A stretch of 64,000 nucleotides of DNA from Actinomadura sp. WMMA1423 (GTDB lineage Bacteria; Actinomycetota; Actinomycetes; Streptosporangiales; Streptosporangiaceae), in assembly GCF_006547145.1 (NCBI RefSeq), contig NZ_CP041244.1, positions 3,348,001 through 3,412,000 on the forward strand, given 5' to 3'. The notes below the pieces were generated by a model. That model searched no databases. It saw only the letters and a program-made list of their open reading frames with translations, and was not told the DNA's origin. Position 1 is the first letter of the stretch; the number at the start of each line of letters is the position of its first letter. This document shows, piece after piece, positions 81 through 30,756 of the stretch. The translations under genes were made by a program, and so were the position numbers.

Positions 81-1796
81 ATGGCAACTGCGCCGAACCT
101 CGTCGTCGCGGGGGACCCCGGCGTCGCCCGGACTTTGCGGGAGACCGGCCGGTTCTCCGCGGTGTACGACGCCGCCTCCGCGGCGGAACTTCGCGACCTG
201 TCCAAGAGCGGGAGGGTCGGCTCCCCCGCCGCCTTCATGTTCGCCCCGGGATTCGTCGAGGACCTCCCGGGCGCGAACGTGGCGGTCCTCGCGAACGGGC
301 TCGCCGCCAGCGGATTCACCGTGCTCGTGCACGGGCGGTTCGCCGAGCGCGGCGACGTCTTCGATCCGGCCGTGCACGTCACCGGCGGGCAGCTCAAGAT
401 GTCGGACCTGCTGGCGATCTTCGGGGTCACCGGCCAGGCCCCGGCCGAGCCCGCCCCGGCCGTATCCGAGACGCAGGCCCCGCCGCAGGCTCCGACCGCC
501 GGGCGGCAGCAGGCGCGACCCGCCGAGGCCGCACCGCCCGCCGCCCAACCGCCCGCCGCCGAGCCGCCCGCCCAACCGGGGCCCGCCGCCCAGGCGCCCA
601 CTGGGCAGGCGCCCGCTACCGGGGGCTGGAATCCGGCCCCGGCGCGGCCTCTGTCCTTCGCCCAGGGGACGGGTCCCGTTCCGCCGCAGGCTCCCGAAGG
701 GCCCCCGCCCTCCGCTCCGGCTCCGGCTCCGCAGCCGTGGCCGGCCCCGGCCCCGGGTCAGCAGGGGTTCGCGGACCAGCAGCCCGTCCCGGGAGCCCCC
801 GCGGAGCCGGGGCCGCAATCGGGTTCCGCCACGAGGCACGACCACAACGCGTTGCCGTCCCAGCCGTCCTCGAACGGATGGCCGGGCCCGCAGCCGACGC
901 CGGCCGCACCGGTCAGGTCGGAGGGGGCCGCCCCGGCCCGGGGGCGGGTCATCGCCATCGCCTCGGCCAAGGGCGGGGTGGGCAAGACCACCACGGCCGT
1001 GAACCTGTCGGTCTACGCGGCCAGGCATCTGCAGGCGGCCGGCCGCCCCGGGAGCGTGGCGCTGGTCGACACCAACTTCCAGCAGGCCGACATCGCGCGG
1101 TACCTGAGCGTGGAGTCGCCGACGATCCTCGACCTGCTCCGGGTGAACGGGTCGCTCAGGGTGGAGAACGTGCGCACCCATCTCGCGCACCTTCCGGACG
1201 CCGACCTGTTCGCCCTGCTCGGGCCGCAGGACGTCACCATGGCCGACCCCGCGCTGATCAACGCGATGCTGTACCGGCGGATCATCGCGGTGCTGAGGCA
1301 GGCGTTCGACTTCGTGTTCGTCGACACGCCGGTCGCCGAACTCTTCCACCTGACGTTCACCGACCTGATCCTTCCCGAGGCCGACGCGATCCTGGTCCCG
1401 GTCGAGCCCAACCGGGTGACGCTGGAGGCCGCCCGCGCCTGGCTCAGCGCGATCACCATGGCGCGGCACTCCCGCAGCGGCGGCGTCCCGCCCGAGAAGC
1501 TGTCGCTCATCCTCAACCGGGCCCGCGCCGACGTGGACTGCAGCCCCGAGGACGTCATGGACCTGATGCCGGGATGGCGGTTCGTCGGCATGATCCCAGA
1601 GGACCAGGAGTGGATGCAGGCCGCCAACAACCGCCGGCTGGCCGCGATGCGGGTCGGCCCGGACCTGGATGCGACCTTCCGCGAGATCCTGCAGTTCGTC
1701 ACCGGGGACCCGGTGTTCGGCCAGCCCATGGCCGCGCAGCCGGGAAGCGGCCGGGGCGGCGTCTGGAGAAGGCTCCTCGGCATGGACCCCAAGTGA
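81..1796 (+). CDS. CpaE-like ParA/MinD ATPase with receiver-like N-terminus
   Basis: 571 aa with three parts. Residues 1-115 resemble a receiver-like pseudo-domain, residues about 120-285 are a Pro/Ala/Gln-rich linker, and the rest is a ParA/MinD ATPase. A canonical deviant Walker A (AKGGVGKT, residues 296-303) and a later FVDTP motif (near residue 415) are present, so ATP binding and hydrolysis look intact. The order receiver-like domain, linker, ParA domain is that of CpaE, which positions Tad pilus/secretion machinery. Only 42 nt separate it from the next gene, which has a CpaF-like shape, so the two are probably co-transcribed. No pilin, TadB/C or prepilin peptidase genes are nearby, so a pilus role is unsupported; positioning of another envelope machine is possible. 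The ATG at 81 directly follows an in-frame GTG at 78, and a GAGG at 67-70 could serve either. Confidence 0.8.
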   Translation: MATAPNLVVAGDPGVARTLRETGRFSAVYDAASAAELRDLSKSGRVGSPAAFMFAPGFVEDLPGANVAVLANGLAASGFTVLVHGRFAERGDVFDPAVHVTGGQLKMSDLLAIFGVTGQAPAEPAPAVSETQAPPQAPTAGRQQARPAEAAPPAAQPPAAEPPAQPGPAAQAPTGQAPATGGWNPAPARPLSFAQGTGPVPPQAPEGPPPSAPAPAPQPWPAPAPGQQGFADQQPVPGAPAEPGPQSGSATRHDHNALPSQPSSNGWPGPQPTPAAPVRSEGAAPARGRVIAIASAKGGVGKTTTAVNLSVYAARHLQAAGRPGSVALVDTNFQQADIARYLSVESPTILDLLRVNGSLRVENVRTHLAHLPDADLFALLGPQDVTMADPALINAMLYRRIIAVLRQAFDFVFVDTPVAELFHLTFTDLILPEADAILVPVEPNRVTLEAARAWLSAITMARHSRSGGVPPEKLSLILNRARADVDCSPEDVMDLMPGWRFVGMIPEDQEWMQAANNRRLAAMRVGPDLDATFREILQFVTGDPVFGQPMAAQPGSGRGGVWRRLLGMDPK

Positions 1797-1838: not shown

Positions 1839-3257
1839 ATGGCAGCGCAAAATGAGCCCGCCACCGGAATGGACTTCTGGGCGGCCATCGGCGTCGGCCA
1901 GGAGGAGGACGGGCCGGACGGGAAACCCGAGCAGGACAAGCTCCTGGTGACCGGCGCCCCCGCCTCCGCCGCACCGGCGGACACGGGCGCCGCCGCGGGC
2001 TCCGGGACGCAGGAGGGCCAGCAGGGTCCGCAGGCCGACTGGGCTTCGCTGTTCTCCGCCTGGGACGACTCCTCCAACGGCGGCGCCCCCGCCGCGGGGC
2101 AGGCGGCCGCGGCGCAGCCGGCCACCGGAAAGAGCGGGGCGGAGGCGGGCGCGGCGCCGGCCGCGAAGCCGAAGGCGCGGAACAAGTCCCGCGACGAGGA
2201 GCCGCGAGAGTCCGCGCCCCCGCCGGCCGAGCAGCCCCCCGGGGACGCGCGGAGCGCTGGAGCCGCGCCCGCCCCGGAGGCGGGCGCGGCGGCCCAGGCC
2301 TCCGCTCCCGCGCAGGAGTGGCGGACCACGCGCAGCACGCCCTTCGGAGCGGCCGAGCAGGCGGCACCGTCCGCGACACCCGCTCAGACTCCGCAGACGG
2401 CCCAGGCTCCGCAACCCACGCAGGCTCCGCAAGCCAGCCAGGCTCCCCAGGCTCCGCAGGAGCCCGCGGACGGCGCCGCACCGCAGCCCCCGCTCGCAGC
2501 GGACCCCGCGTGGACCACGGCGGAGCGCATCGCCACCGCGCTCCGCCCGCGGGTGGCCGAACTCTGGCTGGAGGTCCTCACCCGGCACACGGGCGGGGAT
2601 CCGGCCATGGCCAGCAGGGTGTACCACGTCCTGAACGGGACCCACCTGCTCGGCGAGCTGATGCGAGACGAGACGATCGACGAGGTCCACGTCCACGGGA
2701 CCCAGGTGACCGTCTGCGGAGCGCACGGCATCCGCCAGATCCCCGGGTTCCCCACCCTCGCGGCGTCCCGCCGGGCGGTCAAGACGATCGCCGCCTCCCG
2801 GGAGAAGCAGGGTCTCGTCGTCTCGAAGGTCAACGACTCCGTCGTGATCAGCCGGCGGAACGGCACGGCCCCGAACACGGGCGCCCTCGTCGCAAGCCGG
2901 GTCGTCAGCGCGGACCAGCTCGCCCGGATCCGGGGGGCGCTGCAGCAGATGCAGGCGGTGACCGTGACCGGCCCGGCCGCGCGGATCGTCATCCGCGCGC
3001 TGGCCTCGCTGATTCCGGAGGGCAGCCGCGTCTTCCTCGGTGCGTACGCGACGCTGCCCGCCGGGTGCGTCACGGCGGCGAGCCCGATGGAGGCCGACTA
3101 CGTGCTCGGCGTGCGCCCGGGCGCGGTGGCCGAGGAGATGGCGGGCGCGGGGCAGGTCGGCGGCCTCATCGCCAACCCGGAGACGCAGTTCCCCGCGGCG
3201 CTGCGATTCGCCGTCACGGGGCCTTCCGCCGCGCCGGAGCGGCTGGTCGACCGCTGA
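1839..3257 (+). CDS. CpaF/VirB11-like protein lacking the Walker A motif (pseudo-ATPase)
   Basis: 472 aa. The first 225 residues are Ala/Pro/Gln-rich and low complexity. The remainder follows the layout of a CpaF/TadA secretion ATPase: a helical region, an IDEVHVHG segment like the D-I-M-V-N-G motif of the N-terminal domain, and then the expected P-loop position. There the sequence reads VTGPAARI (376-383) instead of G-x-x-x-x-G-K-T, yet the following ALASLIPEGSRV still matches the helix and strand after a CpaF P-loop. No Walker B or catalytic-glutamate equivalent is obvious. I infer a catalytically dead paralog, perhaps a partner or scaffold for the upstream ParA protein. The start follows a GAAAGGAAG ribosome site. 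Family assignment rests on pattern recognition and needs structure-based confirmation. Confidence 0.6.
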   Translation: MAAQNEPATGMDFWAAIGVGQEEDGPDGKPEQDKLLVTGAPASAAPADTGAAAGSGTQEGQQGPQADWASLFSAWDDSSNGGAPAAGQAAAAQPATGKSGAEAGAAPAAKPKARNKSRDEEPRESAPPPAEQPPGDARSAGAAPAPEAGAAAQASAPAQEWRTTRSTPFGAAEQAAPSATPAQTPQTAQAPQPTQAPQASQAPQAPQEPADGAAPQPPLAADPAWTTAERIATALRPRVAELWLEVLTRHTGGDPAMASRVYHVLNGTHLLGELMRDETIDEVHVHGTQVTVCGAHGIRQIPGFPTLAASRRAVKTIAASREKQGLVVSKVNDSVVISRRNGTAPNTGALVASRVVSADQLARIRGALQQMQAVTVTGPAARIVIRALASLIPEGSRVFLGAYATLPAGCVTAASPMEADYVLGVRPGAVAEEMAGAGQVGGLIANPETQFPAALRFAVTGPSAAPERLVDR

Positions 3258-3375: not shown

Positions 3376-3885
3376 TCAGCTCAGGTGCACGGCGCGCTTG
3401 AGCTCCACATCGCCTATCTCCAGCACCTGCGCACGCGCCGCCGCCTCGGCCAGCGGCGCGATGAGACAGGCCAGGGGGGCGCGCCGGGGGGTGCCCGGCA
3501 TCTCGGCCAGTTCGGTGACCCGGCGCACCCCGGCCGCATCGTGCAACTCGAAGCCGCGGACGGGATGCGCCCAGAGCCTGCCCTGCGCCGTCTCCATCAC
3601 CGGCACCGCTCGATCGCCGGGGGCGACGGCGATCTCGCCTAATACCCAGCCCGTCCGCTGCGCCGCGTCGGCGTAGGCGATGACCTGCTCCAAGTTTCGC
3701 CGCAGCCGCGGCACGCAGGAGCCGCCGAACGTGACCGGCGGGCTGCCCAGCGCGACCGCGTCCCGGCAGCCGAGCCGACCCGCGATCTCGGCGACCCGAT
3801 CGAGGACACTGCGGTGCACATGGCCCACGCGTTCTCCGTCCACGGTAAGCAGCACCACATTCGTGCGGCCCTGCGAATCGGCCAT
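3376..3885 (-). CDS. Hypothetical protein
   Basis: 169 aa, not recognised. The ATG at 3885 is preceded by AAGGGGAG at good spacing, which favours it over the upstream in-frame start at 4047 that would overlap the neighbouring gene. The protein looks like a soluble mixed alpha/beta protein, with no signal peptide, membrane segment or obvious catalytic motif. It contains a central stretch on a tolerant Gly/Val-rich background and a C-terminal helix rich in Ala. It lies 43 nt downstream of the CHC2 zinc-finger gene on the same strand, so the two are probably one transcript. Confidence 0.7.
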   Translation of the reverse strand: MADSQGRTNVVLLTVDGERVGHVHRSVLDRVAEIAGRLGCRDAVALGSPPVTFGGSCVPRLRRNLEQVIAYADAAQRTGWVLGEIAVAPGDRAVPVMETAQGRLWAHPVRGFELHDAAGVRRVTELAEMPGTPRRAPLACLIAPLAEAAARAQVLEIGDVELKRAVHLS

Positions 3886-3928
3886 CGGCTCCCCTTGCCC
3901 TGGCGGCCCCCCGGCCGCCGGGGACGAC

Positions 3929-4936
3929 TCAGGCGGTGCGCATGTCCACGACGCGGTCGGAGTCCAGGATGAAACTCGCGGCCTCGTCCGGAGTGACCCC
4001 CAGGACGTCGATGACCAGCCGGATGGGACCGACCTTCTCGGCATCACAGCGGTGGCACCTCGTCCGGTTGTCTCCGTACACCTTCATCGAGGGGTTCTTG
4101 TCGCCGTTGCTGTGCCGGCTCGGACGGGGGCAGTGCCACAGGTTCCCGTCGTCGGAGGAGGAGCCGAGCCGCGTGAGCACGGTCTTGATGTCCACCGACT
4201 TGGCCTCGGCGATCCGCTTGTTGTGCGGCGAGACGGGGACGGGCGGCACCATGTCGGCGCCGCGGCGCCCGGCCCGCAGCTCCTGCCGGTACTTGGCGGC
4301 CTCGCGCCGCAGCTTCTCAAGGTCGATGCCCTGGGCCGGGTCGTCCTTGGTGACGGGCGGGGGCTCGTTCCCGGTGGACAGGTAGGGGAACCGGTCGTCG
4401 GCCCGCCGCCGCAGCGCCGCGACGAGCACGAACGTGGCGAGCGCGTCCCTGGCCGCCTCCGGCGGGACCATGCGCAGCCGCGCCGCGTACCTGATCACGG
4501 TGGCGGCCTCCGGGGTGACGAGCTGCTGGGGGCCGGAGCCGATGTGCACGGTGGGGACGCCTTCGGCGTCCTGGCCGCCGACCTGGCCCCATTCCAGGTA
4601 GCCCGGGGGGCGGCCCGCGTCGGGGAAGGCCTCCCCCTGCGGGTCCAGCCGCGAGAACTCGAGGACGGTCCCGCCGGCGTAGGCGTCGACGCGGCGGCCG
4701 GCGAAGCCGCACAGTGCCGCGTACGGCACGATGCAGGCCGGGTCCTCGGGGGCGAGGTAGATGACCCGCGATCGGAAGTCGGCCGCGGTCAGGCCGCTCG
4801 CCCGCAGGCCGGCGATGGTCGCGGCGATCACGTCCTGGTCGTCGCCCGGAACCAGGTCGACCGACTTGATCCCCTCGAGCGCCGGAGGTGAGCCGGTGGT
4901 ACGAACGGCCAGCACGTAATCGGTCAACTGCTGCAT
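3929..4936 (-). CDS. Protein with C-terminal CHC2 (DnaG-type) zinc finger
   Basis: 335 aa. The first two-thirds are not recognised. The C-terminal 75 residues carry a DnaG/CHC2-type zinc ribbon: Cys269 with a following His, then Cys294 and Cys297 in a C-H-R-C arrangement, with the interposed N-P-S-M-K-V strand typical of the family (compare T-P-S-F-x-V in DnaG) and a following helix ending in EAASFIL. In DnaG this module recognises single-stranded template DNA, but no Toprim catalytic domain is present here. It may therefore bind DNA without being a primase. It is divergent from the 383-aa gene at 5221 and upstream of the 169-aa gene. Confidence 0.75.
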   Translation of the reverse strand: MQQLTDYVLAVRTTGSPPALEGIKSVDLVPGDDQDVIAATIAGLRASGLTAADFRSRVIYLAPEDPACIVPYAALCGFAGRRVDAYAGGTVLEFSRLDPQGEAFPDAGRPPGYLEWGQVGGQDAEGVPTVHIGSGPQQLVTPEAATVIRYAARLRMVPPEAARDALATFVLVAALRRRADDRFPYLSTGNEPPPVTKDDPAQGIDLEKLRREAAKYRQELRAGRRGADMVPPVPVSPHNKRIAEAKSVDIKTVLTRLGSSSDDGNLWHCPRPSRHSNGDKNPSMKVYGDNRTRCHRCDAEKVGPIRLVIDVLGVTPDEAASFILDSDRVVDMRTA

Positions 4937-5220: not shown

Positions 5221-6372
5221 GTGCCAGCGCAAACCAAGGAAGAGTTCTACGTCCGGCGCCTCTTCGACGACGACGTCCCCGTGTTCGTGGACGCCACCAG
5301 ATACGTCCGGCAGGACCTTCCCTACCCGCTCAGCGCCAAGAAGGCGCTGAAGGCGACCTGCGGGGTCCGCACGGACAACGAGGTGCTGGCGTTCAGCCTG
5401 CGCAACTACACCGGCAAGCAGGCCGAGCGCGAGGTCGAGCACGTCGAGACCACCGTCGGCGGGCGTGTGACGGCGCAGAACCAGCTGCGGCTGCGCATGC
5501 CCCGCAGGACCCTGCACGGCCTGAACGAGACGGCGCGGGCCCTGTCGGTCGTCCTCGGCGACGAAGTGATCACCGAGCTCGACGGCGACCTCTACCTCCT
5601 CACCCTCACCCGCGCCGGCAACGAGGGGACGCTCACCCTCGCCGGCAAGCTGACGAGGTCGGAGGGCGGCTTCGTCCGGTCCGAGCTCAGCGAGTCCGAC
5701 ACCGAGTTCGAACTGCCGGTCGCGGGAGTGCGGCTGCGGATCTTCCTGCGCTCCCCGGTCCGCGACCGCCTCATCGCCTACGGCTTCAGCGGCTACCTCA
5801 CCCGCAAGCCCGGTGAGATGGAAACGGTGACCCGGGCGACCGCGCTGGCCATCAACAGCATCCTCGGCCTGGCCACGTTCCGCATGCTCTCGCAGCTGGA
5901 CCACATCGACGTCCCGGCCGCGCCGCGCGGCAACGCCGTCCGGCAGCGCAAGCCCTCCGAGCGGGTGACCTTCGCGGTGCCGGTGCTGCTGTTCACCGAC
6001 GACGGGACGCCGGCGGCCCGCGGCCACGTCGCCGCCGAGATCGACCTGGACCAGGTGGACCCGGTGACCGGCGGCCTGCAGCTGCACGTCACGGCCGGCG
6101 ACCAGCTGGAGTGGAACCCGGCGGTGGCCGAGACGGTGAAGTTCGAGTCCTACGAGCGGGTGCTCACCGAGACCATCGGCGCCATGCTCCACTCGGCCGT
6201 GGGCGCCGACACGGTGCGCGACCTGGCCTACGACATCATGCTGGGCGACCTCCAGGCCGAGGGAATCGCCCGCCTGCGCACCGCGACCACCGGCCTCCCG
6301 GGCCTGGCCGCCAAGCCGCACCACGCCGAGGTGCGGTCCGTGCAGCCGACCACCGGCGCGCCGGTGGCCTGA
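5221..6372 (+). CDS. Hypothetical protein, 383 aa
   Basis: Not recognised. The GTG at 5221 is chosen because GGAGAAGGG precedes it at suitable spacing; upstream in-frame codons read low-quality Arg/Gly-rich sequence. The protein looks like a large soluble mixed alpha/beta protein without signal peptide or membrane helix, and its composition is ordinary rather than low-complexity. Two segments look like paired beta-rich domains (about 90-200 and 240-310). It is followed by a perfect hairpin terminator and then the kinase operon, so it is probably transcribed separately. It may belong functionally with the accessory genes to its left, but nothing in the sequence proves it. Confidence 0.7.
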   Translation: MPAQTKEEFYVRRLFDDDVPVFVDATRYVRQDLPYPLSAKKALKATCGVRTDNEVLAFSLRNYTGKQAEREVEHVETTVGGRVTAQNQLRLRMPRRTLHGLNETARALSVVLGDEVITELDGDLYLLTLTRAGNEGTLTLAGKLTRSEGGFVRSELSESDTEFELPVAGVRLRIFLRSPVRDRLIAYGFSGYLTRKPGEMETVTRATALAINSILGLATFRMLSQLDHIDVPAAPRGNAVRQRKPSERVTFAVPVLLFTDDGTPAARGHVAAEIDLDQVDPVTGGLQLHVTAGDQLEWNPAVAETVKFESYERVLTETIGAMLHSAVGADTVRDLAYDIMLGDLQAEGIARLRTATTGLPGLAAKPHHAEVRSVQPTTGAPVA

Positions 6373-6625: not shown

Positions 6626-8974
6626 GTGGGCGAGTTCGATGGCACTCCGCCGCACGACACCCGGCGCGACGCCGGGACGACGAGGCGGGACGCGGCGGTG
6701 CCCGGGCCGCGCCCGGCGTCGCCGACCAGGCGGGAGGGCCACGGCCCTGGGGATCCGCTGGTACGGCTGCCGGCCGAGCTCGGCGAGCGCTACACGGTGG
6801 TCGCCGAGTTGCCCGTGCAGGGCGCTGAGTCCGACCTGCTCCTGGTGCGCGACGACGACGGCGCCGAGTTCGTGGCGAAGATCTTCCGCCGCGGGTACCG
6901 CGCCGACCGGGAGGTGTGGGCGAAGCTGCCCGCGCTCCAGGCGCCGAACGTGCTGCGCATCCTGGAGACCGGGCACGCCGGCGGGCGCGACTACGAGATC
7001 ACCGCGTACGCGCCTGACGGCAACCTGCGGGCGCTGATGGACGAGGGGCCGCTGTCCGCGGCGGCCGTCGGCGATGTCGCCGCCCAGCTCGCCGACGGCC
7101 TCCGGGCCCTGCACCGGGCCGGCATCGTCCACCGGGACCTCAAACCCGAGAACGTCCTGGTGCTGGAGAGGGAGCCGCTGCGGCTCGCGATCGCCGACTT
7201 CGGGCTGAGCAGGGTGCTCGACCAGAGCGTGGTGTTCGCCTCGTCGTCGCGGACGCTGGCCTACGCGGCGCCGGAGTCGCTGTCCGGCCAGGTGTCGCCG
7301 GCGCGCGACTGGTGGTCGCTCGGCATGATCGTCCGGGAGCTGGCGACGGGCCGGGCGCCGTTCGAGGGGCTGAGCGAGACCGTCGTGGTCGACCATCTCG
7401 CGACGCGGCCTGTCGGCGCGGACGACGTCCGCGACCCGCGGCTGCGGCTGCTGTGCCAGGGGCTGCTGACCCGCGATCCGCGCAGGCGGTGGACGGGCGA
7501 GCAGGTGGGGCAGTGGCTGGACGGCGGCTCCCCGCAGGTCGCCGAGGAGAGCGTCGAGGCGGGTGACGGGCTCGCGTTCCAGGGGCGGCGCTACTCCGAC
7601 CGGCGGGAGCTGGCGCGCGCGCTCGTCGGGAGCTGGGAGCACGCCGCCCAGTACTTCTTCGGGCGCGGCGAGGCGGGCGAGGCGTGGCGGAGCCTGCGGG
7701 AGTGGCTGGCGCGGGTGACCGGCGACGGCCGCGCCGAACTCGTCGACGGCTACCTGACGACGGCGCTGCCGCCGGACGTGAAGCTCCTGCATCTGGTGCT
7801 GTGGCTTGATCCGTCGCTGCCCCCGCACTTCCTCGGCCGCCGGACCGGCTCCGGCGACCTGCCGGGGCTGGCGGCGCTGGCGGACGACCGGCGCCATCCC
7901 GACCACCGCACCGCCTGCCTGATCGGACGGGCGCTGTGGAGGCACCGCCTGCTGCACGTCCTCGCCGGGTTCGAGGGCGGCGAGGACCTGGCCCGCGTCG
8001 ACGACCAGTGGCGCGCTCACGTGGCGGCCTGGGACGACCTGGCGCGCTGGCTGCGCGAGCAGGGCGCCACACCGCCGGGCCTGGCGAGGCGCCTGCCCGG
8101 TGCCGAGGCCGAGGAGCCGCCCGTCGTCCTGCTCACGCTGCTCGCCCTGGCGGCGCGCCCGGCGGAGACCCACCGTCTGATCGCCGAGGGCGCGGCGCGG
8201 GCGCGCGCGTCCGTCTCCGAGCCGGTGCCGTGGCTCATCTGGATGGCGGACGGCGCGGGCGACGACCCGCTGCGGCTGCTCGCGGTCGCGCGCGCCGCGC
8301 CCGAGGCGGTCGCGGAGACCGAGTCCCGGGCGCGCGAGCGGCACGCCGCGGCGCAGCGCGAGGAGGCGCTGCGCGCGCGGTGGAGCGACCTCGAACGCCG
8401 GCGGCTCGCGGGGCGCGGCGCCGCCATGGCGAAGGCGGCCGCGCTGACGGTTCCGCTGCTGCCGTTCTGGCTGGCGGGCAGCTGGGTCGTCGGGTCGCTG
8501 TTCGGCGGGGGCGACGGCGACGGCACCTCGTCGGTCGGCCTCCACAGCTCCTCCCCCTCCGGCATCTCGTTCGGGGTCCTGGCCGTCATATCGGTGCTGG
8601 CGTGGGCCGTGCACTGCGGCACCGAGGTCCTCGTGGCGCGCACGCAGGGCGCGGACTATCTCCGGCAGGGGCCGTGGGCGATGGTCTCCGGAATCCTCGG
8701 GGCGGGCGGCCGCGGCCTGTCCCAGGCGTCCCAGACGATGTCGGGCGCCGCGCGGCGCGGCGGCCGGCGCGGCTGCCGGACCGGTTGCGTGATCGCGCTG
8801 CTCGTCGCGACGGTGCCGGCGGTGCTGCTCCTCCTCGTGATCGGGGCGCTGACGTCGATCGCGAGCATGCTGTGGATCCTCGTCATGGTCGCGGTTCCCG
8901 CCGCGCACGTGGTCGCGGCGGGCGTGCGGCTGCATCACTGGCGGCTGGCGCGCAAGAACGGAGGAGCCCTGTGA
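6626..8974 (+). CDS. Membrane-anchored Ser/Thr protein kinase, first gene of novel operon
   Basis: 782 aa. The N-terminal Hanks-type kinase domain (about 50-295) has the ATP-anchoring lysine in VAKI (K85), the catalytic HRDLKPEN (169-176), DFG (D191) and APE, so it should be active. Residues 300-600 are a helical region with repeated Trp/Leu patterns that I do not recognise. Three hydrophobic segments follow (about 610-635, 645-670, 730-780), which would anchor the kinase in the membrane with its catalytic domain inside. This is the reverse of the usual PASTA-kinase layout, since the extracellular C-terminal domain is missing. Its stop overlaps the next gene's start (GTGA at 8971). The operon's FHA protein is the natural reader of its phosphothreonine products. 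Confidence 0.9.
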   Translation: MGEFDGTPPHDTRRDAGTTRRDAAVPGPRPASPTRREGHGPGDPLVRLPAELGERYTVVAELPVQGAESDLLLVRDDDGAEFVAKIFRRGYRADREVWAKLPALQAPNVLRILETGHAGGRDYEITAYAPDGNLRALMDEGPLSAAAVGDVAAQLADGLRALHRAGIVHRDLKPENVLVLEREPLRLAIADFGLSRVLDQSVVFASSSRTLAYAAPESLSGQVSPARDWWSLGMIVRELATGRAPFEGLSETVVVDHLATRPVGADDVRDPRLRLLCQGLLTRDPRRRWTGEQVGQWLDGGSPQVAEESVEAGDGLAFQGRRYSDRRELARALVGSWEHAAQYFFGRGEAGEAWRSLREWLARVTGDGRAELVDGYLTTALPPDVKLLHLVLWLDPSLPPHFLGRRTGSGDLPGLAALADDRRHPDHRTACLIGRALWRHRLLHVLAGFEGGEDLARVDDQWRAHVAAWDDLARWLREQGATPPGLARRLPGAEAEEPPVVLLTLLALAARPAETHRLIAEGAARARASVSEPVPWLIWMADGAGDDPLRLLAVARAAPEAVAETESRARERHAAAQREEALRARWSDLERRRLAGRGAAMAKAAALTVPLLPFWLAGSWVVGSLFGGGDGDGTSSVGLHSSSPSGISFGVLAVISVLAWAVHCGTEVLVARTQGADYLRQGPWAMVSGILGAGGRGLSQASQTMSGAARRGGRRGCRTGCVIALLVATVPAVLLLLVIGALTSIASMLWILVMVAVPAAHVVAAGVRLHHWRLARKNGGAL

Positions 8975-10101
8975 GCAGCGGGATCGACGCCGACATCGCG
9001 CTGGACGCCGCGGTGGTGCTGAGCCTCGGCATGAACCGCGTCCTCGGGCGCGGCGCGGGGCTGGCCGCGAGCGCGGCCGAGGCGCTGGCGGCCCGCGCCG
9101 CCGGACGGGCGGAGGCACGGGCGGCCGCGCTCGCCGAGGTGGAGACGCACGAGCGGGCGCTGCGCGAGGTCGTGGAGCGGAGCGCCCGCATCGCGGCGCT
9201 GGCCGAGACCCGCGCGAAGATCGGCGCGGACGTGGCGCTGCCCGAGCCCCTCGACCCCGCCGGCCTGTCCCCCGCGGAGCTGACCGCCTGGTGCGCCGCC
9301 ACGGACCCCGTCCTGGACGAGGCCGAGCGGCGCCTGTCCGAGCACCTCGCCGCGCAGGTCAGCACGCAGATCTTCGCCGTGCCCACCGAAGGGCTGGCGG
9401 CCGACCTCGGGCAGGGCCCCCCGCCGCCCCGGCGCGAGGACGGCGACGTCCGCGGGAACCTGGAGCGGATCATGGCGCGGCTGCTGCCCGACGCCGCCGA
9501 GGAGGAGCGGCGCGCGGTGGCGGAGGCGGCGCGGCTGCTGGCCGGCGTCGCGACGGCGGACGAGGCGGAGGGCGTCCTCCAGGAGGTCCGGCTGCGCATC
9601 CAGGACGCCAACGGCCGCACACGGGAGCGGCGCGAGGAGGAGCGGCGCCGCGCGGCCGAGCGCGAGGCCGCCGAGCAGGCCGAGGCCGAGCGCCGGTACG
9701 TCCTCGACTCCATCACCGCCGCCTTCGAGGACATGGGGTACGAGGTCCAGGCCGGGTTCGAGACGCTGACGGCCGAGGACGGCACCCTGACGCTGACCAG
9801 GGGCGGCTGGCCCGACCACAGCGTGCGGATGCGCGTGGAGGACGCGGCGCACGTGCGGGCGTCGATGGTGCGCGAGCGGCCCGCCGAGAGCGAGGACGAC
9901 CGGCGGCTGGACGTCGAGCGCGAGCGCGAGTGGTGCGAGGCGTTCGAGGCGGCGCGCGAGCGCCTCGCGGACGCGGGGATCCGCTCCGACGTGGGCTGGC
10001 GCCTCGACCCGGGCGTCCGTGAGCTGCCGGTTTCGACCCGGAACAGGCAGACTAGGGGCCGAGTCGGCCAACGCGAGCGCTCTCGCGAGCGTCACAAGTG
10101 A
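8971..10101 (+). CDS. Coiled-coil protein of kinase/AAA/radical-SAM operon
   Basis: 376 aa, no recognised family. Translation starts at a GTG overlapping the kinase stop codon, with GGAGGAG upstream. The first 110 residues are Ala/Glu/Arg-rich and helical, and a strongly charged coiled coil (about 200-250, dense in Glu/Arg/Ala) follows. A compact C-terminal domain (about 250-350) contains a strand-rich segment around GTLTLTRGGWPDHSVRMRV. It lacks signal peptide and membrane helices. Because it is translationally coupled between the kinase and the AAA protein, I infer a substrate or adaptor of this complex. The long in-frame extension upstream lies inside the kinase gene and is not used. Confidence 0.8.
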   Translation: MSSGIDADIALDAAVVLSLGMNRVLGRGAGLAASAAEALAARAAGRAEARAAALAEVETHERALREVVERSARIAALAETRAKIGADVALPEPLDPAGLSPAELTAWCAATDPVLDEAERRLSEHLAAQVSTQIFAVPTEGLAADLGQGPPPPRREDGDVRGNLERIMARLLPDAAEEERRAVAEAARLLAGVATADEAEGVLQEVRLRIQDANGRTRERREEERRRAAEREAAEQAEAERRYVLDSITAAFEDMGYEVQAGFETLTAEDGTLTLTRGGWPDHSVRMRVEDAAHVRASMVRERPAESEDDRRLDVEREREWCEAFEAARERLADAGIRSDVGWRLDPGVRELPVSTRNRQTRGRVGQRERSRERHK

Positions 10102-10142
10102 GATGCGGAGGCACGGACGGAGCGGATTGGGGAGCACGCTAG

Positions 10143-12056
10143 ATGAGCATTGATTCGCCTACCCTCGGGGGGCGGTTGCAGGGTTGGCCGCCATTCATCC
10201 GCGAGCTGGACGCGACCCTCTCGGTGCACTCCCAGTACGTCCTGTCGGGCAACCTCTACGACAGCTTCCTCTCCCCCGCGGCGGACGGCGCGCCCGCCCA
10301 GCTCCTCCCGCTGCGCGCCCTGCTGTGGGAGACGCTGCGCTCCAGCGGCGCGTCCTTCATGGCCGTGTACGACCCGGTCGACGGGCTGCAGATCGTCCCC
10401 GGTCCCGAGGACGCCGCCGGGGCCGAGGCGGCCGCCGCGGCCGAGCGGCTGCTGGGCAAGACCAAGGCGGACGAGAAGCCGTCGCTGGAGGGGCTGACCC
10501 GCTACCTGGCCGGGGTCGCCCGCCCGAAGGAGAACGTCCGCGCCGCGTTCGTGATCGACTCGGCGTCGCGCATCGCCCGCACCCCCACCGACCTGGAGCC
10601 GGCCGAGCGCGACTTCTTCCGGTTCTGCGCGAAGCTGTCGCGCAGCGCCCGCCCCGTCCGGGTGGCCGGGGCGCGGCCGAAGCCGCTCTACAACCCGGTC
10701 GTCTGGCTGGTGGAGCGGCCGGGCGACCTGCCGCCGTGGCTCACCGCCGACAACGAGAACATCCGCGAGATCACGATCCCGCGCCCGCACCTCGGCGACC
10801 GGCAGGAGACGGCGCGGCTGCTGGCCCGCGCGTTCGGGGTCGGCGACGTCGCCGCCGACGAGGCCGCGGCGGCGGCCTGCGACGCGTTCGCCGAGCAGGC
10901 CGACGGGCTCACCCTCCAGTCGATGATCGAGGTGACCCGGCTGGCGAAGGAGCGGGGTGTCGACCTCGCCGACCTGCCGGACGCGGTCCGCACCTACAAG
11001 CTCGGCGTGCTCGACAACCCGTGGAGCCGCGGCCACCTGCGCCGCCGGGTGCTGGACGGGGAGAAGCGCGTCCCGGAGCGGGTGATCGGGCAGCCGCAGG
11101 CCGTCACCAAGACCCTCGACATACTCAAGCGGGCGGTGCTCGGCCTGTCGGGCGCGCAGGCGACCCGGTCCGGGAGCCGGCCGCGCGGGGTGCTGTTCTT
11201 CGCCGGCCCGACCGGCACCGGCAAGACGGAGCTGGCGAAGGCGATCACCGAGCTGGTCTTCGGGGACGAGTCGGCCTACCTGCGCTTCGACATGAGCGAG
11301 TTCTCCGGCGAGGGGTCCGGCGACCGGCTGATCGGGTCGCCGCCCGGGTACGTGGGCCACGAGGCGGGCGGCGAGCTGACCAACGCCGTCCGCGAGGACC
11401 CGTTCCGGGTGATCCTCTTCGACGAGATCGAGAAGGCGCACCCCCGGATCCTGGACAAGTTCCTCCAGATCCTGGAGGACGGCCGCCTCACCGACGGCCG
11501 CGGCAACACCGTGCACTTCTCCGAGTCGATCCTGATCTTCACCTCGAACCTCGGGATGTACGTGCCGGGGCGCGACCTGACGGCCCGCGACCCCTTCCCG
11601 CTCGGTACCCCCGAACGTGTGCAGAACATCACAACCGGGATGACCTACGACGAGGTGGAGCAGCGCATCAAGGGCGCCGTGGCCGACCACTTCACCGAGG
11701 TGCTGAACCGGCCGGAGCTGCTCAACCGGTTCGGCGACAACATCGTGGTGTTCGACTTCATCTCCGCCGAGGCCGCGCACAAGATCTTCGACCTGCAGTT
11801 CGCGAACATCTGCCGGCGGGTCACCGACGAGCACCGGCTCGTCCTGGCGGTGAAGGGCGAGGCGCTCGAGACGCTCCGCCGGTGGTGCACGGAGGAGCTC
11901 GACAAGGGCGGGCGCGGCATCGGCATGGCCCTGGAGTCGCACTTCGTCAACCCGCTGGCGCGCGCGCTTTTCGACCGGGAGCTCGTCCCAGACGAGAAGG
12001 TCACCGTCACGGGCATCCGGCGCGAGGGCAGCATCGTGCATCTGGACCTCCAGTGA
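10143..12056 (+). CDS. Tandem AAA+ ATPase: degenerate first module, ClpB-type second module
   Basis: 637 aa. The C-terminal half is a Clp/Hsp100 D2-type AAA+ module: Walker A GPTGTGKT (355-362), pore-loop-type GSPPGYVGH, Walker B with D427/E428 in FDEIEKAHP, sensor-1 TSNLG, and an Arg-finger-like ELLNRF followed by a ClpB C-terminal domain. The N-terminal 300 residues also look like an AAA fold (SGNLYDS start, a FVIDSA strand at the Walker B position, a sensor-like VVWLVERPGDLPPWL, and a helical lid) but have no Walker A, so this module is probably dead. ClpB M-domain and N-domain are absent, so it is not a standard disaggregase. It starts 41 nt after the coiled-coil gene and its stop overlaps the radical SAM start. 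Confidence 0.9.
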   Translation: MSIDSPTLGGRLQGWPPFIRELDATLSVHSQYVLSGNLYDSFLSPAADGAPAQLLPLRALLWETLRSSGASFMAVYDPVDGLQIVPGPEDAAGAEAAAAAERLLGKTKADEKPSLEGLTRYLAGVARPKENVRAAFVIDSASRIARTPTDLEPAERDFFRFCAKLSRSARPVRVAGARPKPLYNPVVWLVERPGDLPPWLTADNENIREITIPRPHLGDRQETARLLARAFGVGDVAADEAAAAACDAFAEQADGLTLQSMIEVTRLAKERGVDLADLPDAVRTYKLGVLDNPWSRGHLRRRVLDGEKRVPERVIGQPQAVTKTLDILKRAVLGLSGAQATRSGSRPRGVLFFAGPTGTGKTELAKAITELVFGDESAYLRFDMSEFSGEGSGDRLIGSPPGYVGHEAGGELTNAVREDPFRVILFDEIEKAHPRILDKFLQILEDGRLTDGRGNTVHFSESILIFTSNLGMYVPGRDLTARDPFPLGTPERVQNITTGMTYDEVEQRIKGAVADHFTEVLNRPELLNRFGDNIVVFDFISAEAAHKIFDLQFANICRRVTDEHRLVLAVKGEALETLRRWCTEELDKGGRGIGMALESHFVNPLARALFDRELVPDEKVTVTGIRREGSIVHLDLQ

Positions 12057-12817
12057 GCACGGGCCGGCCCGCCGCGTCCGGAGCGGGCGCGGGCGAGACG
12101 CTCCTGCTCGCCAAGGCGCACTATCCGGTGACCACACTCGGCCCCGGAACCCGTGCGGGAATCTGGACGCAGGGCTGCACGCTGCACTGCGACGGCTGCC
12201 TCTCCCGCGACACGTGGGACGCGGACCCGGGGCGGGCGATCCCCGTCCAGGCGGTCCTAGGATGGCTCGCGTCCCTTCCGGAACCGGTCGACGGGGTGAC
12301 CATCTCGGGCGGAGAACCCTTCCAGCAGCCGGCCGCGCTCGCGGCCCTGGTGCGGGGGATCCGCGCGTGGCGGGAGACCCGAGGCCGTGAGACGATTGCG
12401 ATGGACATATTGGTGTACAGCGGATATGTCTACTCTCGGCTCTCGCGCGCCGGTGTGACGCGCGAGATCGTGGACATGTGTGACGCCGTGGTCACGGGGC
12501 CCTACGTCGACCGGCTCAACCCGAAGGGGCGACACCCAGAGGACGGCTCTCTACTCTGGAGGGGGTCGGCCAACCAGCGTGTCGTGCCGGTGTCCCCGCT
12601 GGGACGCGAGCGGTACGGGGCAGTGGCCGGCGTCGGTGACACTGAAGTCGGCGACACTGAAGGAAGAGGGCCCCGAGTACAGGTGTCCGTGGACGAAGGG
12701 CCGGAGGGAAGGCGGGTGTTCTACATCGGGATCCCGCGACGGGGTGACATGGAGCACCTCACGTCGAGGCTCGACCGCGCCGGCGTGCGCTCGGGGGATG
12801 TGTCATGGCGACCTTGA
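12053..12817 (+). CDS. NrdG-like radical SAM protein
   Basis: 254 aa. The CxxxCxxC cluster motif (C42, C46, C49 in GCTLHCDGC), a downstream SGGEPFQQ (the GGE SAM-binding motif), and the sequence of a short activase-type barrel place it with the NrdG/4Fe-4S single-cluster radical SAM proteins. These normally activate glycyl-radical enzymes, but no NrdD or PFL-type gene lies in the window. It is fused by overlap (GTGA) to the AAA gene and overlaps the FHA gene by 13 nt, so a role inside this operon is more likely than ribonucleotide reduction. The C-terminal 50 residues after VVPVSPLG are not typical of NrdG. The target of its chemistry is unknown. Confidence 0.85.
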   Translation: MSTGRPAASGAGAGETLLLAKAHYPVTTLGPGTRAGIWTQGCTLHCDGCLSRDTWDADPGRAIPVQAVLGWLASLPEPVDGVTISGGEPFQQPAALAALVRGIRAWRETRGRETIAMDILVYSGYVYSRLSRAGVTREIVDMCDAVVTGPYVDRLNPKGRHPEDGSLLWRGSANQRVVPVSPLGRERYGAVAGVGDTEVGDTEGRGPRVQVSVDEGPEGRRVFYIGIPRRGDMEHLTSRLDRAGVRSGDVSWRP

Positions 12818-14136
12818 ACTGTCCGGTCTGCGACGAACCGGTCCAGCCGGGTGATCTGCTCTGCATGAGCTGCGGGGCCAACCTGGCGCGCGCCGGCGGC
12901 GCGCCCCAACCGGGCCCGGGCGGGTACGGCCAGCCTCAGCACGGCCAGCCGCAGCCGGGGCAGTACGGCCAGCCTCAGCACGGCCAGCCTCAGCCGGGGC
13001 AGTACGGGCAACCCCAGCACGGGCAGCCCCAGCCGGGGCAGTACGGCCAGCCTCAGCACGGCCAGCCCCAGTACGGCCAGCCTCAGCCGAACGACCCGTA
13101 CCAGCAGCAGGCCCCGAACCAGCAGGGTCCCTCCGGGCAGCCGCAGGACCCCTGGGGTCCGCAGCAGCAGCAGCAGCAGCCGGACGCGTGGGGGCCGCCC
13201 ATGCAGCAGCCTCCCGCCGACCAGCAGGGGCAGCCCCAGTACGGCCAGCCCCAGCACGGGCAGCCCCAGCACGGGCAGCACGGTCAGCCGCAGCATGGCC
13301 AGCACGGGGGCCAGTCGCCCATGCAGCAGCAGCCTGCCGACCCCTGGGGCATGCCCCAGCAGCAGCAGGATCCGTGGGGCGCGCCGCAACAGCAGCAGTC
13401 ACCGGCGGCCGACCAGTACCAGCAGCCGCAGGACCAGTACCAGCAGCCGCAGTACCAGCCGCAGGAGCAGTACGGCGCTCCGCAGCCCGGTCCGGGCGAC
13501 CACCAGTTCGGTCCGCCGCAGCAGCACTCCCCGTACGGGCAGCCGCAGCACGGAGGCCCCCAGCACGGCGGTCAGCCCCAGCACGGCGGTCAGCCCCAGC
13601 ACGGCCAGCCGCAGCACGGGGGCCAGCCGCAGCACGGGGGCCAGCCTCCGCTGCCGCCGCACGGCCGTGAGGCGACGCTGCTGCCGCACGAGCACAACCA
13701 GGGCCAGGGCCAGCGCCCGCCCGCACCCGACAGCACGGCGTTCATGTGCCCGTACTGCGAGGCGGTGCTGACCAACCCGGGCGCCGCGCAATGCGACTCG
13801 TGCCTGCGCCCGCTGCCGCAGAAGGGCACGCCCATCCTGCGCGTCCAGTTCCCGACGGGCGAGCTCAAGGTCTCCGTCGGGCAGCACCTGGTCCTCGGCC
13901 GGGACGCGGGCCAGTCGCCGGTGGCGGCCACGTTCACCCAGTACGACAACGTGTCGCGGCGCCACTCGACGGTGTGGCTCGACCCGTCCGGCACGGCGTG
14001 GGTGCGCGACGAGGGCTCCACCAACGGGACGTTCGTCAACGGCGAGCGGCTCCCCCGCGGTGTGGAGGCCCCGCTCCGCGACGGCGACCAGCTCCGTCTG
14101 GCCGCCGACGTGACGGGCACCGTCCAGCTGAACTGA
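12805..14136 (+). CDS. Zinc-ribbon, Gln/Gly/Pro-rich, FHA-domain protein
   Basis: 443 aa in four parts. Residues 1-25 form a zinc ribbon (C6, C9, C20, C23). Residues 30-310 are a disordered Q/P/G/H/Y repeat built from short GQPQHGQ-like units. A second zinc ribbon (C315, C318, about C329, C332) follows. A C-terminal FHA domain (about 340-443) retains the phosphothreonine-binding signature: GRD, S-R-R-H-S, and S-T-N-G-T-F-V-N-G. No signal peptide or membrane helix. FHA domains bind phosphothreonine, so the operon's kinase is the obvious writer. The repeat region may phase-separate or act as a flexible tether; that is inference. Confidence 0.9.
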   Translation: MATLNCPVCDEPVQPGDLLCMSCGANLARAGGAPQPGPGGYGQPQHGQPQPGQYGQPQHGQPQPGQYGQPQHGQPQPGQYGQPQHGQPQYGQPQPNDPYQQQAPNQQGPSGQPQDPWGPQQQQQQPDAWGPPMQQPPADQQGQPQYGQPQHGQPQHGQHGQPQHGQHGGQSPMQQQPADPWGMPQQQQDPWGAPQQQQSPAADQYQQPQDQYQQPQYQPQEQYGAPQPGPGDHQFGPPQQHSPYGQPQHGGPQHGGQPQHGGQPQHGQPQHGGQPQHGGQPPLPPHGREATLLPHEHNQGQGQRPPAPDSTAFMCPYCEAVLTNPGAAQCDSCLRPLPQKGTPILRVQFPTGELKVSVGQHLVLGRDAGQSPVAATFTQYDNVSRRHSTVWLDPSGTAWVRDEGSTNGTFVNGERLPRGVEAPLRDGDQLRLAADVTGTVQLN

Positions 14137-20713: not shown

Positions 20714-21769
20714 TCACCGCCGCGCGGCCAGCTCCGACACCTTCCTCTTGAAGTCGGGCCGCGCGAGCGGGCGGGTCACCCCGATCCAGTTCGCCTTCTT
20801 GTAGGTCTTGACGCCGATCGCGGGCACGCACGCCGAGCAGCTCGCCACGATCATCTTGCCGCCGCCGATGACCATCCCCACATGGCCGGGGTTGTCGGGC
20901 GAGGTCCCGGGGCCGGAGTTGAAGAACACCAGGTCGCCCGGCTGCTCCTTGCCCTTGGCGATCTTCACGCCGAAGGGCCACTGCTCGAACGTCGTGCGCG
21001 GGAGGTTCAGGCCGACCTGCCGGTACGCGGCCTGGATGAGGCTGGAGCAGTCGTAGGCGTCCGGGCCGTTCGCCCCGAACACGTACGGCTTGCCCCGCTG
21101 CGCCATGGCGAACGCGATGATCGTCTTCACGAGTGCGCTGACGTTGGCCGGGAGCCGGTTGTCCTCGCAGTTGATCCCGTTCGCCTGGACGACCTTGAAC
21201 TCGCCGCCGACGTAGCGCTTCGCCCAGGTCAGGACGAGGTCGACGTAGTCCCACGAGTGGTTGTACTGGAAGATCGCGGTGCGCATCCTGGTCGGGGCGC
21301 CGTTGTGCTTGAGGTAGGCCGCGGCGGTCGGGATCGCGTCGGCCGGGTTGTAGCGGTCCTTCTTGCCGTCGTTGTCGCCGTCCACCGCGAACGCCTTGAA
21401 CGTCGCCGCCAGGAACTGCATGGGGCCGCCCGCACCCGCGTAGTTCTCCCCGCTGGAGACGCCCGGCATCGTCGACCTGCCGTGGTCGGTCTCGACCTTG
21501 CCGACGCCCGCCAGGACGTTCCAGGGGATGCCGTACTTCCTGCCCGCCTCCTGGTACAGCTTCAGGTAGTCGGCCGGGACCGCCTTGGCGTCGTTCGCCG
21601 CCGCGGGCTGCGCGCCGGCGCCGGCGGTGTCCACGCATCCGCCGCCGCCCACCCCGCCGCCGAACAGGAACTGGCCCGCGCCGAACAGGATCGGGACGAA
21701 GATCAGTGCCATGAACATGACCCCGGCGACCGCGATGCCGCCGACGAGCAGCAGGATCCGCGAGCTCAT
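20714..21769 (-). CDS. Bifunctional lytic transglycosylase/NlpC-P60 endopeptidase (TcpG/VirB1-like)
   Basis: 351 aa. An N-terminal membrane anchor (residues 1-40) leads into an SLT-like transglycosylase domain with the catalytic Glu in KVETDHGRS and GPMQF. A C-terminal NlpC/P60 domain has Cys in YDCSSLI and His in GHVGMVI. Such two-domain enzymes open the cell wall for type IV secretion. It is the last gene of the tcp-like operon; its ATG overlaps the preceding gene's stop. Confidence 0.93.
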   Translation of the reverse strand: MSSRILLLVGGIAVAGVMFMALIFVPILFGAGQFLFGGGVGGGGCVDTAGAGAQPAAANDAKAVPADYLKLYQEAGRKYGIPWNVLAGVGKVETDHGRSTMPGVSSGENYAGAGGPMQFLAATFKAFAVDGDNDGKKDRYNPADAIPTAAAYLKHNGAPTRMRTAIFQYNHSWDYVDLVLTWAKRYVGGEFKVVQANGINCEDNRLPANVSALVKTIIAFAMAQRGKPYVFGANGPDAYDCSSLIQAAYRQVGLNLPRTTFEQWPFGVKIAKGKEQPGDLVFFNSGPGTSPDNPGHVGMVIGGGKMIVASCSACVPAIGVKTYKKANWIGVTRPLARPDFKRKVSELAARR

Positions 21770-22401
21770 CCCGTGTCACCCGCCTGCCCGGCGTCCGCCG
21801 GCTCGAACGAGTAGACCCTCATCGAGCCGCCGTCCCTCGTCACGGTGACCGCGTACTGCTTGCTGTCGCTGCTCGTCCGGCCGCTCCTGGTGACCTGCTG
21901 GCGGCCGGTCACCAGGAAGATGATCGAGTTCTTCTCGATGTCGCGGACCTCGTCGAGGGACGCGGTGCCCTGCGCGACGAACTGCTCCTTGCGGCGCTCC
22001 TCCACCATCGCGGGCGTCGCCATCCCCTGGCCGAGGCGCTGCCCGAGGTCGTCGGTGGCCAGGCCGGCGAACTGCGCCACGTAGGCCTGGGGGGTCTCGT
22101 CGTAGCGGTACGTCCCGTAGGCGGCGACGAACCGCTGCGCGAGGTCGGCCGCCGCGGCGAACTCCTGCCGGGAGAACGGCAGCAGCCGGTAGACGTCGAA
22201 GTCGCCCGGGTCCACGGTGCTCTGGATCCCCGGCGGCGGCGACGCGGGCGCCTGCGACGCCGTGGCGCTCGGACGTGCCTGCGGCTCGTCGTCGTGCTCG
22301 TCCGACGGCGCGGCGAGCGTCAGGTAGACGCCGACGGCCGCCAGCAGTACGACGAGACCCGCGAACAGGAGCTTGCGCCGCCGGTCGGTCAGGTTCATCA
22401 C
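21766..22401 (-). CDS. Membrane-anchored NTF2/VirB8-like T4SS component
   Basis: 211 aa. One N-terminal TM helix (about 10-30) and a Pro/Ala-rich spacer precede a soluble domain (70-200) with a helix-then-strand pattern (FAAAADLAQRFVAAYGTYRYDETPQAYVAQFAGLATDDL ... IIFLVTGRQQV). This fits the NTF2-like fold of VirB8 and TcpC proteins and would sit outside the membrane. Its start and stop both overlap neighbours by 4 nt. It may form a complex with the TcpC homolog encoded at the operon's head. Confidence 0.7.
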   Translation of the reverse strand: MMNLTDRRRKLLFAGLVVLLAAVGVYLTLAAPSDEHDDEPQARPSATASQAPASPPPGIQSTVDPGDFDVYRLLPFSRQEFAAAADLAQRFVAAYGTYRYDETPQAYVAQFAGLATDDLGQRLGQGMATPAMVEERRKEQFVAQGTASLDEVRDIEKNSIIFLVTGRQQVTRSGRTSSDSKQYAVTVTRDGGSMRVYSFEPADAGQAGDTG

Positions 22402-30701: not shown

Positions 30702-30756
30702 GCCCCTACTCCCCTAACTGCGCGGGCACCGTGCCGCCTCCGGACCTCCGCCTGGG

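Follow-up and report, generated by a model that had tools for sequence, protein, structure and literature searches.

Why would an actinomycete keep, directly behind an intact ParA-type ATPase gene, the gene for a CpaF-like protein whose ATP-binding loop has apparently been replaced? This question is raised by a 64,000-nucleotide stretch of Actinomadura sp. WMMA1423 (contig NZ_CP041244.1, positions 3,348,001 to 3,412,000; hereafter the window), taken from a genome of 9.53 Mb in one contig. An open reading frame (ORF) at 1839-3257 starts 42 bases past the stop of a CpaE/ParA-like gene (81-1796, plus strand). From the letters of the window, its product, here called pseudo-CpaF, had been described as a CpaF-shaped protein with its P-loop replaced by VTGPAARI. 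This original prediction also proposed that it is a pseudo-ATPase serving as a structural partner of the adjoining ParA protein, in a window without Tad pilus genes. We found that pseudo-CpaF derives from the Tad motor CpaF/TadA, of the VirB11/FlaI superfamily, and is frequently linked to CpaE-like genes and to type IV secretion system (T4SS)-like genes. It probably does not hydrolyze ATP, and may instead act as an adaptor in a T4SS-like machine.

Pseudo-CpaF is a divergent homolog of CpaF

When searched as a single protein, pseudo-CpaF matched no Pfam (PF00437 included) or NCBIfam family at E up to 1, and a PDB sequence search returned no secretion ATPase, so that profiles and fold comparison were needed to place it. 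Profile searches, hhalign and an AlphaFold model showed that its C-terminal ~250 residues are homologous to CpaF/TadA. Of 394 genomes of the class searched with a profile of nine relatives, 37 were matched, the source genome among them. Twenty-nine of the 36 foreign matches were inspected, and in 27 of these the protein is of the CpaF type and retains GxxxxGK[ST]; the other two are L050, where the stretch ends before the P-loop, and L057, which looks like a chance match. In the reverse search, a profile of 19 CpaF proteins recovered 16 of 19 pseudo-CpaF domains at E <0.01 (for 3458 ORFs), with a best E of 2.5e-7 and 3.6e-4 for the window protein; L069 reached 0.07. Comparison of pseudo-CpaF with the 19 CpaF proteins by hhalign gave probabilities of 97.2-97.5 and E values of 2-4e-11. 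Because 16 of these 19 had been gathered by the same profile, one independent CpaF, found in the source genome by PF00437, was aligned separately (83%, E 8.6e-6), while a control, the neighboring VirD4-like P-loop ATPase, scored 0.1%.

The AlphaFold model has a predicted local distance difference test score (pLDDT) of 73.5 and a predicted template modeling score of 0.66, and is good to about residue 170 and poor for most of 175-221. Its best Foldseek matches were FlaI, TadA/CpaF, VirB11 and GspE, with E values from 4e-7 and low overall TM-scores (0.2-0.3). VIA-align ranked CpaF 9e24 first (Z 10.3, root mean square deviation 5.0 over 109 residues), covering model residues 13-121, which correspond to N-terminal domains 1 and 2 (NTD1-NTD2). 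The predicted structure is thus CpaF-like, and we regard homology to CpaF as secure; the RecA-like half appears degenerate when its motifs are aligned.

The P-loop is missing from all relatives examined

Motifs were compared in a MAFFT L-INS-i alignment of 16 relatives and 19 CpaF proteins, with losses read in 6 of the 16 relatives; this alignment was used for the motif table since hhalign in global mode aligned badly past the P-loop, where CpaF has an extra segment. The Walker A loop of the relatives is three residues shorter than the GGTGSGKT of CpaF, and the positions of the P-loop Lys and Thr hold Ala and Arg (Pro in one of the six relatives). The arginine loop of CpaF NTD2, GRR..D..LPDGSR, is absent, as is the Asp-box-bearing stretch between Walker A and Walker B. 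Walker B reads V(V/I/L)GV rather than VVGE, the His box reads LIAN rather than LHAN, and the chain ends ~100 residues earlier than that of CpaF. According to a study of CpaF, the active site comprises P-loop Lys 287, His-box His 382, Glu 357 and Asp-box Glu 312, together with Arg 217 and Arg 223 (PMC11300603). Judged by their spacing from the P-loop Lys in CpaF row L044, the two Arg residues of the lost NTD2 loop probably correspond to 217 and 223.

Loss of the P-loop was observed across relatives. Twenty distinct sequences were available (the 16-row alignment, three further ones from the 9-row alignment, and genome G557), with five genomes that overlap named loci counted once. None of the 20 has a GxxxxGK[ST] Walker A motif, and GK[ST] occurs nowhere in the 16 aligned domains. 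Instead, the P-loop is replaced by x-G-P-A-A, or N-G-P-H-A in the most distant relative, and the G, the P and the second A of G-P-x-A are invariant in all 16. The replacement by VTGPAARI, with loss of Lys and Thr relative to the 19 CpaF proteins, is present as first described, and none of the 20 sequences is an ortholog that retains GKT. Since the motifs that define the ATPase family were tested and found missing, pseudo-CpaF would not be a member of that family in the functional sense, as judged from its sequence; at most it would do the structural share of the work of CpaF.

Pseudo-CpaF is conserved in its altered form

Gene calls in related loci came from a home-made codon-usage caller, with some starts uncertain; because it missed pseudo-CpaF in L069, presence and absence were taken from the tblastn table. 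The C-terminal 252 residues were matched in 9 of 200 genomes of the family, the source included, and a scan of GTDB contigs yielded 15 named loci in Actinomadura, Actinoallomurus and Bailinhaonella. The closest named relative, from Actinomadura mexicana, is 94% identical. Among 248 five-residue windows, TGPAA ranks ninth in conservation. All 16 aligned sequences have an open C-terminal domain, with 23 invariant columns, the replaced loop included. Ratios of nonsynonymous to synonymous change (dN/dS) were 0.25-0.64 in all seven pairs compared, which were hand-picked and scored by a simple NG86 count that is rough in a GC-rich genome. These values are signs of purifying selection. Together with the invariant G-P-x-A, they let the gene read as one for a pseudo-ATPase, its ATP site removed and the protein kept, rather than as a decaying gene. 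The original proposal of a pseudo-ATPase built on the CpaF fold has good support.

We also considered that the cluster might contain an intact CpaF elsewhere. When the CpaF profile was run over the 3458 neighborhood ORFs, pseudo-CpaF proteins came out at the top and other scores were weak, the best being an ABC-type ATPase frame (E 0.005, identified by eye); no intact CpaF was found, and genome G559 gave nothing significant. This possibility was rejected for the neighborhoods scanned.

A CpaE/TadZ-like partner precedes pseudo-CpaF

The gene directly upstream, 81-1796, carries SAKGGVGKTTTA and encodes a protein with the CpaE/TadZ layout: a receiver (REC)-like domain, a ParA domain with its signature Lys, and a C-terminal tail recognized by eye. 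Its deviant Walker A is intact; the original prediction had noted an intact CpaE-like ATPase here. Receiver domains lead the fold search with its N-terminal domain (VIA Z ~10; Foldseek E 8e-3 at best), and a long, proline-rich linker follows. Similar tails were seen by eye in 11 of 14 partner proteins; we presume that this tail resembles the membrane-targeting helix of MinD. Against NCBIfam CpaE_hom_Actino, the partner scored 36.4 bits, below the cut-off of 154.

A CpaE-like ParA domain, whole or as a fragment, lies upstream of pseudo-CpaF in 13 of the 15 named loci, and the window protein and 10 of these 13 retain the signature Lys. Other genomes carry the same pair, and the P-loop is gone in every pseudo-CpaF compared. 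The REC-like domain is present somewhere in 16 of 19 distinct loci, weakly so in L070 (43%) and L071 (37%). The gene order is that of two ordinary cpaF loci of the source genome, where by eye a ParA-like gene stands directly before cpaF. In genomes G131 and G198, whose sequences are sisters in the tree, the REC-like domain is fused to a transmembrane segment and a C-terminal domain that by eye looks like Fn3. Separately, the SCO6880-type cluster of G131 encodes a short ParA-like protein without the Lys (SSCHGGAGASTL; L021 812-1432, plus strand; by eye).

A GxDFW- or TxDFW-type motif occurs near the N terminus of pseudo-CpaF in 13 of the 16 members of the 16-relative alignment. Besides this motif, the linker region (window 1839-2498) holds DWASLFSAW; some relatives have related W..[LM]F stretches, and the Bailinhaonella protein has two close to its start. 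The DFW and DWASLFSAW-like stretches are possible docking motifs.

Pseudo-CpaF mostly lies near T4SS-like genes of two types

A T4SS-like cluster occupies the 20 kb upstream of the pair, outside the window and hence invisible to the original prediction. A VirB4-type gene (AAA_10 2.5e-18), oriented the other way, has its start ~150 bases ahead of that of the CpaE-like gene. On its strand follow a gene for a 1336-residue membrane protein and, farther on, one for a VirD4-like ATPase (TraG-D_C 27.7 bits, cut-off 22); between these two, on the other strand, a 1275-residue protein matches NLPC_P60 (23.6 bits, cut-off 23). The 1336-residue protein and a 391-residue upstream protein, which were compared with VirB6- and VirB8-like roles, have no Pfam match. 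This upstream VirB4 type was found at >=79% identity in 4 of 59 genomes searched, the source and G559 among them, and is rare in the genus.

T4SS-like genes of two types are found near pseudo-CpaF in 15 of 19 distinct loci: in the fetched DNA, eight loci have the upstream VirB4 type, seven the SCO6880 type, and four neither. In Actinomadura physcomitrii (L067), the pair sits between the VirB4-like gene and NlpC plus TraG-like genes, all on one strand. In a tree of the 19 sequences, which has a long Bailinhaonella branch, neither T4SS type forms one clade, indicating that the context changed more than once. Neither pseudo-CpaF nor CpaE is present at twenty other SCO6880-type loci (three cut by contig ends), which come from 14 genomes belonging to different genera of the class. 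An origin of the pair from SCO6880-type clusters of other Actinomycetes was rejected, as 0 of 20 loci have it.

Searches for a mobile element around the locus were negative. There is no tRNA in the 84 kb covered, the nearest tyrosine integrase (PF00589) match is >650 kb away (serine integrases were not searched), and no TrwC relaxase was found; the nearer of two PF03432 matches is >1.4 Mb away (other relaxase families were not searched). No plasmid or phage record matched pseudo-CpaF at E up to 1e-3. On these results, an origin from an integrative and conjugative element or a phage is not supported.

The window holds a second T4SS-like cluster at 20714-32003 (minus strand), comprising NlpC/P60 plus SLT, TrbL/VirB6, VirB4, TcpE and TcpC. 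A second VirB4 match at ~27%, which in the source genome is the VirB4 of this cluster (window 24956-27445), was found in 36 of 36 genus members searched. The TcpE (VirB3-like) of the cluster (27612-30701, minus strand) carries a fused ParA-like domain in which the P-loop is GCTGGAGQTVT, with Gln in place of the signature Lys; the same holds in 12 of 12 further genomes. This is a second P-loop loss in a T4SS-linked NTPase.

Features of the locus and neighboring genes

The features of the pair and its nearest neighbors are collected in Table 1. The Cys/His-rich C-terminal stretch of orf335 looks, by eye, like a primase-type zinc ribbon, which hints at a possible link to DNA. Farther downstream, a run of genes in one direction (window 6698-14136, plus strand) encodes a Ser/Thr kinase, a ClpB-type AAA protein and an FHA protein; A. 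mexicana L062 shares the first three genes of the run.

Table 1. Positions in the window of the CpaE/TadZ-like and pseudo-CpaF genes, their parts, and adjacent ORFs
Feature	Position	Strand	Remarks
CpaE/TadZ-like partner	81..1796	+	REC-like domain, linker, ParA domain, basic amphipathic tail; Pfam AAA_31 1.2e-12
Partner REC-like N-terminal domain	81..434	+	AlphaFold pLDDT 87.6, (beta-alpha)5
Partner ParA domain	936..1715	+	Intact deviant Walker A, KGGVGKTT
Partner C-terminal tail	1749..1793	+	GRGGVWRRLLGMDPK; basic, amphipathic
pseudo-CpaF gene	1839..3257	+	472 residues, ATG start; ORF confirmed in window
pseudo-CpaF domain order	1839..3257	+	N-terminal motif, disordered-looking linker, CpaF NTD1, NTD2, degenerate RecA-like domain
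N-terminal short motif	1863..1895	+	TGMDFWAAIGV; precedes poorly conserved linker; read off sequence
Three-helix segment, counterpart of CpaF NTD1	2505..2666	+	Model helices H3-30, H35-46, H49-56
NTD2-like domain	2673..2861	+	IDEVHVHG strand; CpaF GRR..D..LPDGSR loop missing
G-P-A-A replacing Walker A loop	2970..2981	+	Lys, Thr absent
Walker B relic	3093..3122	+	ADYVLGVRPG; VVGE-VRG in CpaF; catalytic Glu absent
His-box relic	3165..3179	+	LIANP; LHAN in CpaF; His absent
orf169	3376..3885	-	Near pseudo-CpaF in many relatives; no Pfam/NCBIfam match (3377-3898 frame)
orf335	3929..4936	-	Near pseudo-CpaF in many relatives; no significant Pfam match
orf383	5221..6372	+	Near pseudo-CpaF in many relatives; no Pfam/NCBIfam match

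Discussion

We lean, with confidence slightly better than even, toward the view that a Tad-type cpaE-cpaF pair was recruited to T4SS-like machines, with the CpaF half as a non-hydrolyzing adaptor. In this model, pseudo-CpaF would act as an adaptor or hub at the cytoplasmic base of the T4SS-like machine, and would serve as the docking surface for the REC-like domain of its CpaE-like partner, akin to the arrangement modeled for CpaE around the CpaF hexamer. The ParA domain and amphipathic tail could anchor the complex to the membrane and set its location, roles that a transmembrane segment seems to take over in two related genomes. VirB4 and the VirD4-like ATPase, rather than pseudo-CpaF, would power the machine, and the DFW motif at the end of the long linker may offer a further docking site. 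A bolder version, which we hold tentatively and rate somewhat below even, is that Gram-positive T4SS-like machines do have a member of the VirB11/CpaF superfamily: those of Actinomadura and its neighbors took the Tad pair and turned its motor into a non-ATPase hub, with the hub-REC contact essential and ParA a mere replaceable anchor. The last point is suggested by the transmembrane swap in the two genomes.

Several observations weigh against the adaptor model. The reverse CpaF profile scored L067 and L076 at E ~2, which is not significant. The RecA-like half is poorly predicted, with pLDDT <50 at residues 175-202 and 204-221, and the absence of a nucleotide pocket is therefore judged from sequence. 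The T4SS label depends on the VirB4- and VirD4-like ATPases and a marginal NlpC/P60 match, and may be weakened further by the unmatched 1336-residue membrane protein and by the distance of the two relaxase families and the tyrosine integrase. No T4SS genes are seen in 4 of the 19 loci, one of them a 6-kb contig, and L069 and L076 show only parts of the SCO6880-type cluster. Nor is the partner universal. The signature Lys is Arg in L073, only ParA fragments remain in L070 and L071, and genomes G131 and G198, in which no ParA at >35% identity was found, lack its ParA domain. In the fetched DNA (up to 10 kb on each side), CpaE is absent from L068 and from L066, an orphan locus of A. violacea where pseudo-CpaF is accompanied by orf169 and orf335. 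In G559 (L149 8396-8458), a CpaE-like gene stands beside VirB4 and directly beside orf335, with both pseudo-CpaF and orf169 missing at that locus. These gaps indicate that neither gene is strictly required for the other. A structural partnership with ParA is plausible, given the upstream ParA domains and the gene order shared with cpaF loci, but is not obligatory, as G131, G198, L066, L068 and G559 break the pairing.

An unlikely alternative is a nucleotide-dependent positioning pair that is independent of secretion, in which the REC-ParA protein would be a MinD/ParA-type positioner, pseudo-CpaF a cargo adaptor for some other polar structure, and the T4SS mere genomic-island company. The loci without T4SS genes in their fetched flanks fit this explanation, as do the association of the same pair with two different T4SS-like clusters and, in Actinoallomurus iriomotensis (G152/L073), a distance of ~9 kb between the pair and the SCO6880-type genes. 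Against it stand the T4SS-like genes at 15 of the 19 loci and the placement of the L067 pair amid VirB4-like, NlpC and TraG-like genes on one strand.

Conservation of the altered pocket raises a second alternative, that pseudo-CpaF is an active or nucleotide-binding protein in which GPAA, ADYVxGVRPG and GQxGALIANPET form a new ligand or enzyme site. Few parts of the protein are as well conserved as these three segments, a pattern not required of a simple scaffold. The aligned elements of CpaF that contact phosphate, magnesium and base, the NTD2 loop included, are gone, however, and we consider a remodeled pocket rather improbable.

We give little credence to the idea that pseudo-CpaF is a CpaF relic on its way out, kept by chance and drift. 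Signs of decay are present in a few loci: L065 apparently has a frameshift in its linker, the N-terminal motif is missing from L070, both L070 and L071 have a broken CpaE gene, and pseudo-CpaF is absent at the G559 locus. The open C-terminal domain in all 16 sequences, its 23 invariant columns and the dN/dS values in the seven pairs argue against drift. Finally, chance resemblance to CpaF in a GC-rich, alanine-rich protein, which would fit the empty Pfam, NCBIfam and PDB sequence searches and the 2 of 19 relatives missed by the reverse profile, is scarcely credible given that 27 of 29 inspected foreign matches are CpaF, that hhalign gives 97% against 0.1% for the P-loop control, and that secretion ATPases lead both Foldseek and VIA.

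Recruitment of a Tad-type pair can be set against the known systems. Pseudo-CpaF shares with CpaF/TadA, the Tad motor ATPase (PF00437), the order of a disordered-looking NTD0, three-helix NTD1, NTD2 and RecA-like start, the cpaE-like gene directly upstream, and the profile and fold matches. Unlike CpaF/TadA, it lacks Walker A, the Asp box, the Walker B Glu, the His box and the NTD2 arginine loop, is ~100 C-terminal residues shorter, has no PF00437 match and lies in a T4SS-like setting. The original statement that the window has no Tad genes holds for CpaF, since the three PF00437 matches of the genome lie elsewhere; no Tad family was found among 24 Pfam-scanned proteins (22 of them neighbors), and Tad families other than PF00437 were not searched across the region. 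VirB11 of Gram-negative T4SSs, an active hexameric ATPase, belongs to the same superfamily, and pseudo-CpaF resembles it in lying near VirB4 and a VirD4-like ATPase and in its fold matches (2gza, 1nlz, 2pt7), but has no recognizable ATP site. A 2025 FEMS review describes Gram-positive T4SSs as universally without VirB11 homologs (PMC12857230).

The partner, for its part, shares with CpaE/TadZ an atypical REC-like domain, a deviant-Walker-A ParA domain and an amphipathic tail, the layout given in a study of the Tad machine whose fitted model has CpaE/TadZ dimers encircling the CpaF hexamer (PMC13170226). It differs in its long proline-rich linker, its T4SS-like loci and its score far below the CpaE_hom_Actino cut-off, and in G131 and G198 the REC-like domain sits on a transmembrane segment with no ParA domain. 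SCO6880-type clusters are one of the two cluster kinds near the pair, yet the 20 loci of other genera have neither gene. A Cutibacterium acnes plasmid carries Tad genes together with VirB4/TcpC-like genes, a link that its report leaves open (PMC5696575). No report of a disarmed CpaF or VirB11 was found among the matches listed in open-access full-text searches, which is weak evidence of absence because subscription journals were mostly uncovered.

A protein of the VirB11/CpaF superfamily, conserved without its ATP site, sits in loci of the Gram-positive T4SS-like type. If the bolder version is correct, no earlier case, as far as we found, would be known of a disarmed protein of this motor family that fills a structural role in a secretion machine. 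It offers a way to separate the roles of the ring as structural hub and as motor, and allows one to ask how CpaE/TadZ grips CpaF free of ATP turnover.

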